From NCBI RefSeq assembly GCF_025685545.1, contig NZ_JAGSYC010000024.1, positions 1-64,000 on the forward strand: 64,000 nucleotides of DNA, given 5' to 3'. Source of the DNA: Granulicella paludicola (GTDB lineage Bacteria; Acidobacteriota; Terriglobia; Terriglobales; Acidobacteriaceae). Position numbers and translations under genes: made by a program. This document shows positions 9,407 through 12,400 of this stretch, in pieces. The first letter of the stretch is position 1; each line of letters starts with the position of its first letter. The notes beneath the pieces were generated by a model. The model ran no database searches. It saw only the letters and a program-made list of their open reading frames with translations, and was not told the origin of the DNA.

Positions 9407-12400
9407 ATGTCGAATCCAAACAACCGCGACACGAACATCGCAATGCGGGCCATCCGCCAGCGACTCGACTTTTCCAAGATCCCAACGTCGATCCAGATCC
9501 CGAACCTGATTGAGGTGCAGCGCCGCTCGTATGAGCGCTTCCTCCAGATGGACAAACTGCCGCAGGAGCGCGAGGACAACGGACTTCAGTCCGTGTTCAC
9601 CTCGGTGTTCCCGATCACGGACTTCCGCAACGTTTCGGAGCTTGAGTTTGTCGATTACTCGATCGGCAACTGGGAGTGCAAGTGTGGCTACCTGAAGGGG
9701 CTGAACCACCTGCGCACTGCCTGCACCAGCTGCGGCCACATGGTCATCACCGATCCGTTCCATCCCGGCGATGTACTGTGCAAGTTCTGCGGCACGTACA
9801 ACAAGAACACCCCTGACTTCTGCACCAAGTGCGGTGACCCGGTGGGCCTGCAGTTGAAGTATGACCAGGCTGAATGCGAAGAGCGCTCGATGACCTACAG
9901 CGCCCCGCTGAAGGTGACGATCCGTCTGAAGATCTACGACAAGGATCAGGAGACTGGCGTCAAGACCCTGCGCGATATGAAGGAGCAGGAAGTCTTCTTC
10001 GGCGATATTCCGCTGATGTCGGCTAACGGCACGTTCATCGTCAACGGCACCGAGCGCGTCATCGTTTCGCAGCTGCACCGTTCGCCCGGCGTCTTCTTCG
10101 AGACGGCGAACAACCGCACCTACTTCCTGGGCAAGATCATTCCGTACCGCGGCTCGTGGGTGGAGTTCGAGTACGACCAGAAGAACACGCTGTATGTCCG
10201 CATCGATCGCAAGCGCAAGTTCCTGGGAACGATCTTCCTGCGCGCTCTCGGCCTGCGTACGGATGAGGAGATCCTCAAGACCTTCTACACGGTCGATACC
10301 CTCAATGTGGCTGAAGGCAAGCTGAGCTGGACGCTGGCGACCGACGAGGTCCCGACGAACCTGCTGGGCAGCCGTACAACTGCGGCTCTGCACAACAGCA
10401 AGAAGGAAGAGATTGTTGCTGCGGGCAAGAAGATCGGTAACAACGCGCTGAAGCAGCTTCGTGCTGCAGGCGTGACCTCGGTTGAGGTGGAGACCAGCGA
10501 GCTGGAAGGCGCGATGATCGCCGCCGACGTGATCGACATGACCACCGGCGAGCTGATGTACGAGGCCAACGCCGAGCTGACCGCGGACAAGCTGCATAAG
10601 ATCCTCCAGTCGGGTGTGACGACCTTCCAGGTCTTCTTCCCTGAGCGCGACGACGTAGGCAACATCATTGCCAACACGCTGCGCCGCGACTCGGTGCGCA
10701 AGCCCGAGGAAGCGCTGATTGAGATCTACCGCAAGCTGCGTCCCGGCGACCCACCGACGCTCGATACGGCGACCGCCCTGTTCGAAGGTATGTTCTTCGA
10801 TCCGCGCAAGTATGACTTCTCGCGCGTAGGCCGCCTGAAGTTCAACATCAAGCTGTATGAGAACCAGGACCCGGCGGGCCTCGATCACCGCACGCTGACG
10901 CCTGAGGACTTCTACGGCACGATCCGTTACCTGCTGAAGCTGCGCAAGAATATCGGCAACGTTGACGACATCGATCACCTTGGCAACCGCCGCGTCCGCG
11001 CTGTAGGCGAGCTCATGGAGAACCAGTTCCGCATCGGACTTGTTCGCATGGAGCGCGCGATCAAGGAGAAGATGAGCGTGTATCAGGAGATGTCGACGGC
11101 GATGCCGCACGACCTGATCAACGCGAAGCCGGTGATGGCCGCGATCCGCGAGTTCTTCGGATCGTCACAGCTGTCGCAGTTCATGGATCAGACGAACCCG
11201 CTCTCCGAGATCACGCACAAGCGCCGCCTGTCGGCCCTTGGACCTGGTGGTCTGTCGCGTGAGCGCGCTGGCTTCGAAGTCCGCGACGTTCACCCGACCC
11301 ACTACGGCCGCATCTGCCCGATCGAGACGCCGGAAGGACCGAACATCGGTCTTATCTCGTCGCTGTCGTGCTTTGCGCGCATCAATGAGTATGGTTTCAT
11401 CGAATCGCCCTACCGCAAGGTGAAGGACGGCGTGGTGCTGGACTACGTTGCTGTGACGAATGCCGGTGAGTCCGGGCTTCGCCAGGGTGATTCGCTCGAG
11501 ATCTCCGATTCCGTCAAGCTGAACAAGCAGTTGAAGAAGGACGGTAAGCGGACGATGGATCTGGAGCCGTTCAGCTTCTATCTGTCGGCATGGGAAGAGG
11601 ACCGTCACACGATCGCGCAGGCGAACATCACGCTCGATGCCGAGCTGAACATCGTCGACGATCTGGTCAACGCTCGTAAGCAGGGCAACTTCGTGCTGGT
11701 GCCGAAGGCCGAGGTCGACTACGTCGACGTTTCGCCGAAGCAGCTGGTGTCGGTTGCAGCTTCGCTCGTGCCGTTCCTTGAGCATGACGATGCGAACCGC
11801 GCGCTGATGGGTGCGAACATGCAGCGCCAGTCGGTGCCGCTGCTTGTAGCTGAAGCGCCGTTCGTCGGAACGGGTATGGAAGGCGTAACGGCGCGCGATT
11901 CGGGCGCTGTGATCCTGGCCAAGCGTAACGGTATCGTCGACTCGGTCGATTCTGAGCGCATCATCGTGCGTGTGGAGGGTGAGCACCACCCAACACAGCT
12001 GTCGCGCGAGGTTGGTTCGGACATCTATCAGCTGACTAAGTTCAAGCGCTCGAACCAGAACACCTGCATCAACCAGAAGCCCATCGTTCGCCACGGCGAC
12101 CGTGTGATCAAGGGCCAGGTGATTGCAGATGGTCCTTGCACGGAACAGGGTGAGCTCGGCCTCGGTCGTAACGTTCTCGTAGCGTTCATGCCGTGGCGCG
12201 GTTACAACTTCGAGGACGCGATCCTCATCTCGGAGAAGCTGGTCCGCGAGGACTACTACACCTCGATCCACATCGAGGAGTTCGAGATCGAAGCGCGCGA
12301 CACGAAGCTTGGACCGGAAGAGATCACGCGCGATATCCCGAACGTTTCCGAGCACGCTCTGCGTGACCTGGACGAGTCGGGCATCATCCGCATCGGCGCC

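Follow-up and report, generated by a model that had tools for sequence, protein, structure and literature searches.

A conserved eight-cysteine insert in the RNA polymerase beta subunit of Acidobacteriota and its likeness to the zinc-binding domain of beta'

The RNA polymerase beta subunit (RpoB) of Granulicella paludicola, encoded in a 64,000-nucleotide stretch of its genome (contig NZ_JAGSYC010000024.1, positions 1 to 64,000; hereafter, the window), carries near its N-terminus an eight-cysteine insert that recurs in most of the Acidobacteriota, is absent from the other bacterial beta subunits that could be read, and has a single-ribbon relative at the same site in Aquificota. The insert presumably binds zinc. 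The interpretation developed here, which stands about an even chance of being right, is that a loop of the beta1/protrusion region holds a cysteine-rich module whose outer part would be a descendant of a copied beta' zinc-binding domain, whose inner part would be an Rpo12-like ribbon, and which may act as a docking platform for a protein. The features concerned, all on the plus strand, are as follows.

9407..13915, plus strand: rpoB, RNA polymerase beta, 1502 amino acids and a stop codon, with its ATG at 9407 and a match to TIGR02013
9668..9856, plus strand: the insert, residues 88-150, between LEFVDYSIG and normal beta sequence, delimited by a gap in PDB alignments and by the alignment of 162 loci
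9677..9685, plus strand: knuckle 1, C91 and C93, probable outer site; C91 is lost jointly with C139 in four lineages
9722..9733, plus strand: knuckle 2, C106 and C109, probable inner site; lost jointly with C128 in one lineage (G003)
9779..9790, plus strand: knuckle 3, C125 and C128, probable inner site; columns 18-45 of insert alignment A1 match Rpo12
9821..9832, plus strand: knuckle 4, C139 and C142, probable outer site; in a ranking of the last three knuckles by their resemblance to the closing knuckle of beta', it comes first
9977..9985, plus strand: M191-K192-E193 of RpoB, aligned to I117-K118-E119 of Escherichia coli beta
14333..14413, plus strand: core of the beta' zinc-binding domain in rpoC, residues 66-92, read from the sequence; presumed source of the insert

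The insert and its distribution

The identity of the protein is secure, as its score of 1809 bits against the bacterial RpoB model TIGR02013 far exceeds the curated cut-off of 801.15. Eight of its 15 cysteines fall within 52 residues (91-142), from the C91 codon at 9677-9679 to the C142 codon at 9830-9832; a first-pass annotation of the window, made from the sequence alone, had named cysteines 91, 93, 106, 109, 125, 128, 139, and 142 at 9677-9832, and every one of them is present at the coordinates given. That annotation had also described an insertion flanked by normal beta sequence, and a PDB search with RpoB bears this out: in the alignments examined (the best 3 of 57 sequences), solved beta chains match on both sides with a gap between, the best one covering the query up to residue 85 and resuming at 150 and the next two breaking off at 88 and resuming at 152, so that no PDB beta chain among these three carries the stretch. 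In E. coli numbering, the insert of approximately 60 residues follows G76 and lies 41 residues ahead of I117-K118-E119.

A genome search with the first 245 RpoB residues as query matched 143 of 149 Acidobacteriota genomes, leaving six without a match. The loci read numbered 162 (148 from Acidobacteriota and 14 from Aquificota), and the 148 together with the window, less five same-genome duplicates, yielded 144 Acidobacteriota rows; these are enriched for families f4, f33, and f25, which were searched on purpose, and the counts below are not frequencies. All eight cysteines are kept in 119 of the 144 rows, so that the pattern is conserved beyond chance. The remainder comprise 12 complete rows of f33, two truncated rows (an f33 row cut by a contig end and one from outside f33), four further rows with damage, and seven that lack the module. 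Among the 119 eight-cysteine rows, the stretch 88-149 is exactly 62 residues long in 118, G98 is invariant, W89 is found in 117, and R103 is found in 105; likewise, an alignment of thirty diverse inserts (A1) is gapless over its 67 columns.

Outside the phylum, a scan for a conserved RpoB motif returned 80 named loci of other bacteria, of which 54 had a readable N-terminus and 26 were cut or off-pattern. The insert is absent from 54/54 readable N-termini and, at more than 40 residues, it thus has the attributes of a lineage-specific beta insert. The first-pass annotation had staked its proposal on the segment not being common to most bacterial RpoB; within the reach of the survey it is not common, many phyla being unsampled (Nitrospirota, Bacteroidota, Planctomycetota, and Myxococcota are examples of those that the survey did not reach).

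Aquificota carry a single-ribbon relative of the acidobacterial insert at the same site of beta; the first-pass annotation had noted neither this relative nor the likeness to beta' discussed below. With the A1 profile, RpoB-like frames were detected in 14 of the 61 genomes of the phylum to which G150 belongs (a genome named Desulfurobacteriaceae and placed in Aquificota by NCBI), and an Aquificota RpoB N-terminus used as query matched all 61 across its whole length of 180 residues. A single ribbon with GDW[EY]C and, as its closing knuckle, CxxC occupies the site in 30/30 Aquificota loci read, in two types: CxC in 14 loci (GDWYCKCG...CxxCG.EV) and CxxC in 16 (GDWEC...C...CPxCG). As its 14/61 versus 61/61 with the RpoB query indicates, the A1 profile is blind to CxxC-type ribbons. 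Within the scope of double or beta'-like forms in frames longer than 1100 amino acids, the same profile at an E-value of 5e-5 disclosed no RpoB insert in three other phyla, those of Pseudoxanthomonas (G156; 299 genomes), Sphaerobacter (G151; 201 genomes), and an Actinobacteria metagenome-assembled genome (G154; 198 genomes), in which it matched 3, 19, and 10 genomes, respectively. The matched frames longer than 1100 amino acids were all read, seven in the phylum of G154 being beta' and one in that of G151 an unrelated protein.

Damaged and missing modules

The eight cysteines probably form one ribbon nested within another, the outer composed of C91, C93, C139, and C142 and the inner of C106, C109, C125, and C128, because the losses in five damaged lineages fall inside either the outer or the inner set. 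Positions 91, 93, and 139 have lost their cysteines in f33 and in G222, as have 91 and 139 in G059 and in G224; the 12 fully read f33 rows read S,S,C,C,C,C,D,C, a natural loss of one presumed metal site with the inner four cysteines intact. The reverse case is G003, in which C106, C109, and C128 are gone while C91, C93, C139, and C142 stay. All losses are thereby confined to {91,93,139,142} or {106,109,125,128}. If the two damaged knuckles were a random pair, a given pairing would fit each lineage with a chance of one third and all five with a chance of (1/3)^5 = 0.004, to be multiplied by the three possible pairings, or (1/3)^4 = 0.012 if G222 and G224 represent a single event; these two are not sisters in the tree, in which the branch support is only 86-87.

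Further observations favor nesting. The inner part (A1 columns 18-45) matches Rpo12 with an E-value of 3.3e-4, and in f33, where the outer site is gone, it still resembles Zn_ribbon_4, Zn_ribbon_5, and S27e, all below the cut-off; indeed, no zinc-ribbon family reaches its Pfam cut-off for the insert. When the insert was modeled with AlphaFold over 81 residues (mean predicted local distance difference test score, pLDDT, of 87.3, with core blocks at 93-95), strands were predicted at 10-13 and 70-73, on either side of the inner part. The inner part is akin to Rpo12/Rpb12 and to other single ribbons (S27e, eL40, and DZR), from which the present case differs in that the ribbon belongs to a catalytic subunit and seems to be enclosed there by a second ribbon.

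The first-pass annotation had instead envisaged two zinc ribbons side by side, an arrangement that the loss pattern, the Rpo12-like inner part, and the modeled strands speak against. Were the ribbons in series, C91, C93, C106, and C109 would share one zinc and C125, C128, C139, and C142 the other; two observations weigh for this and against nesting, namely the beta' spacing of C91-C109 and the alignment of Pfam DZR (PF12773) to residues 125-147, although the fragment searched scores 20.5 bits, short of the gathering cut-off of 27.3. A serial arrangement nevertheless appears quite improbable, as each of the five damaged lineages (5/5) would have had both sites hit at once and the match of the inner part to Rpo12 would go against it.

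The module as a whole can also disappear. It is missing from seven rows: G001, G017, G031 (f2), G044, G080 (f29), G104, and G125. Where it was deleted in G125, the edge remnants IGNW and LNLKYD are still there, and in G044 and G080 the tryptophan following the glycine survives; the other f29 genus (G069 and G090) has a complete module. In a tree built without the insert columns (65 rows and 178 columns, with many weak branches), the lacking rows are nested among bearers, requiring four changes. The position of the lacking rows inside the bearers, the remnants at the edges, and the split within f29 together indicate that the phylum has had the module since early on and that individual lineages can dispose of it.

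Such losses, together with the forfeiture of one presumed metal site across all 12 fully read f33 rows, would suit a structural or nearly neutral element, a stabilizing or tolerated insert without any partner. This explanation is regarded as unlikely in view of what the deep branches of the phylum have retained, namely a fixed length in 118/119 rows, the invariant G98, and W89 in 117/119. The module thus presents itself as a well-delimited element that lineages can apparently do without, and natural losses of either presumed metal site are available for comparison.

Likeness to the beta' zinc-binding domain

A beta' origin of the insert is favored by the sequence comparisons, although not proven. 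The beta' (RpoC) zinc-binding domain, encoded downstream of rpoB in rpoC (which starts at 14138), shares with the insert a [DN]W[EY]C.CG start and a closing CxxCG, as well as the C-x-C-x12-C-x2-C spacing of the CxC type of Aquificota and of acidobacterial knuckles 1-2; this spacing holds in 30/30 A1 rows and in six of six CxC-type rows, whereas the CxxC type differs. The insert departs from that domain in sitting in beta, in lacking its basic loop, and, in Acidobacteriota, in having an added inner ribbon and probably another pairing of its cysteines.

The CxC type of Aquificota gives the clearest likeness. Searched against the PDB, its insert found only beta' or gamma among the best 60 of 97 matches (E-values of 5.2e-6 to 3.5e-4), a few of these entries being named 'beta' by the depositor yet matched at the beta' position. 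The 180-residue Aquificota RpoB query, which is of the CxC type, also matches, at its residues 67-126, a frame of 1475-1592 amino acids in 42 of 61 genomes (E-values of 5.1e-7 to 8.6e-4; identity of 38-52%, or 42-52% in the 14 CxC-type genomes), these frames being assigned to beta' by length, position, and one frame read. For Acidobacteriota, the likeness is fainter: the window insert alone retrieved seven PDB sequences at E-values up to 10, three of which are cyanobacterial gamma at the zinc-binding domain (0.65-1.4), and the acidobacterial profile reached beta'/gamma from an E-value of 0.013. In nine genomes of other bacteria, columns 2 to 33-35 of that profile match a long frame in five, and all five are beta'/gamma.

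Column permutations, scored on a profile built from 38 distinct beta' sequences, served as shuffle controls. The acidobacterial first ribbon scores 22.4 bits on average, a score reached by 0/500 shuffles that keep the cysteines and by 0/500 that keep the cysteines and two glycine columns. The CxC type attains 39-47 bits and is equaled by 0/500 shuffles in all three settings. Position by position, acidobacterial residues 88-97 are beta'-like and then diverge; a position-specific scoring matrix of our own gave negative absolute scores against beta', and its ranking alone was used. The basic RNA-gripping loop of beta' is not kept at residues 98-102, where the most frequent residues are G-L-E-H-L in Acidobacteriota and G-L-G-G-K in the CxC type versus R-V-R-Y-K in beta'. 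Both kinds of insert have K92 in common, a residue absent from the 38 beta' sequences, and G98 is invariant in both.

Several of these comparisons also cut the other way. The G98 glycine occurs in beta' of Desulfurobacteriaceae and of seven Actinomycetota as well and is hence weaker evidence; when the tryptophan is kept along with cysteines and glycines, 7/500 acidobacterial shuffles reach the real score; the CxxC type, scored on the beta' profile, gets no further than 7.4 bits; and in the PDB the acidobacterial profile ranks 13 other sequences, including other ribbons, above beta'/gamma (among the best 60 of 209). Alternatively, beta might have received a common zinc ribbon that has no relation to beta', with the W-x-C-x-C-G/CxxCG likeness arising by convergence and strengthened in one Aquificota branch. 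This alternative is a substantial one, albeit clearly below even: it sits poorly with a CxC type that matches solely beta'/gamma chains among its best PDB matches and whose score no shuffle attains, with a CxxC type that also stands above its shuffles (0/100 in three settings), and with the use of the same beta site by both phyla.

Beside these comparisons, it may be recorded that the seven Actinomycetota beta' subunits have a glycine (KYKG) in the zinc-binding domain where most sampled beta' have R/K.

Possible origin, function, and known beta inserts

Under a beta' origin, the zinc-binding domain encoded by the neighboring rpoC would have been copied into beta, landing in a beta1/protrusion loop; the outer part (C91, C93, C139, and C142) would most likely descend from this copy, and a second, Rpo12-like ribbon (C106, C109, C125, and C128) would have been added inside it in Acidobacteriota. 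A broader scenario, rated at somewhat less than even odds, has the beta' domain entering the beta protrusion in a common ancestor of Acidobacteriota and Aquificota, or passing between them, to give two related zinc modules, with the inner ribbon arising inside the copy in Acidobacteriota, where the module would have become a platform on which an acidobacterial transcription factor docks.

The first-pass annotation had proposed that the insert could contact upstream DNA, a sigma factor, or a lineage-specific regulator. By analogy, the module would most likely be a small, rigid, accessory, and dispensable docking surface for a protein partner, in the same part of beta as the docking site of Mfd. 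Mfd is described as bound to the beta protrusion (PMC7864632) and beta1 as bound by the Tudor domains of Mfd and CarD (PMC5397179), and the beta' zinc-binding domain, for its part, as wedging RapA open and being required for its activation (PMC8501970). The near-neutral charge of residues 88-149 (mean net charge of +0.79, standard deviation of 2.47, range of -6 to +8; n = 119 eight-cysteine rows) and the loss of the basic beta' loop favor a protein partner. Both features tell against the binding of nucleic acid, such as upstream DNA, a role that would be in keeping with R103 (105/119 rows) and with accounts that the beta' domain contributes to the retention of upstream DNA (PMC8501970) and binds putRNA (PMC9378689); nucleic-acid binding is deemed doubtful. 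A further article reports that removing the beta' zinc-binding domain in Thermus left Rho-dependent RNA release unaffected (PMC9908020).

The insert shares its region of beta with the CarD/Mfd RID docking site on beta1, from which it is a separate element. M191-K192-E193 preserves the equivalent of the IKE residues of that site, I117-K118-E119 of E. coli beta, which we take to be the Mfd RID contact. A search of the window's genome for the CarD/TRCF RID gave a single match (G000:C17:347315-347485), in a frame of 1289 amino acids, the size of Mfd; a separate CarD was not found by this search, unlike in many relatives searched, and a separate CarD is thus not needed for the module.

Lineage-limited inserts are already known in RNA polymerase. 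The beta inserts i4, i9, i11, and i12 (Lane nomenclature) are likewise inserts of more than 40 residues confined to some phyla, although they are located elsewhere in beta and the word zinc is absent from the source (PMC2939025); similarly, the BEAN insertional domains of bacterial beta are lineage-specific but occupy other sites and probably have another fold, and the terms zinc, ribbon, and cysteine are absent from the source (PMC11515920). In the open PMC literature, no account was found of a beta zinc ribbon at this site, of its cysteine pattern, or of its beta' likeness; an earlier catalogue of beta inserts, which may already include this one, lies outside that scope.

We are not aware of any example of a domain of one large RNA polymerase subunit having been copied into the other. 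If true, such a subunit-to-subunit copy would represent an uncommon route to new regulation in the core enzyme, in this instance in a phylum that is common in soils.

Elsewhere in the window, a 92-amino-acid frame on the minus strand (6128-6406) contains CGCFYC and CPKC motifs and perhaps encodes a small zinc-binding protein, or may be a chance frame.
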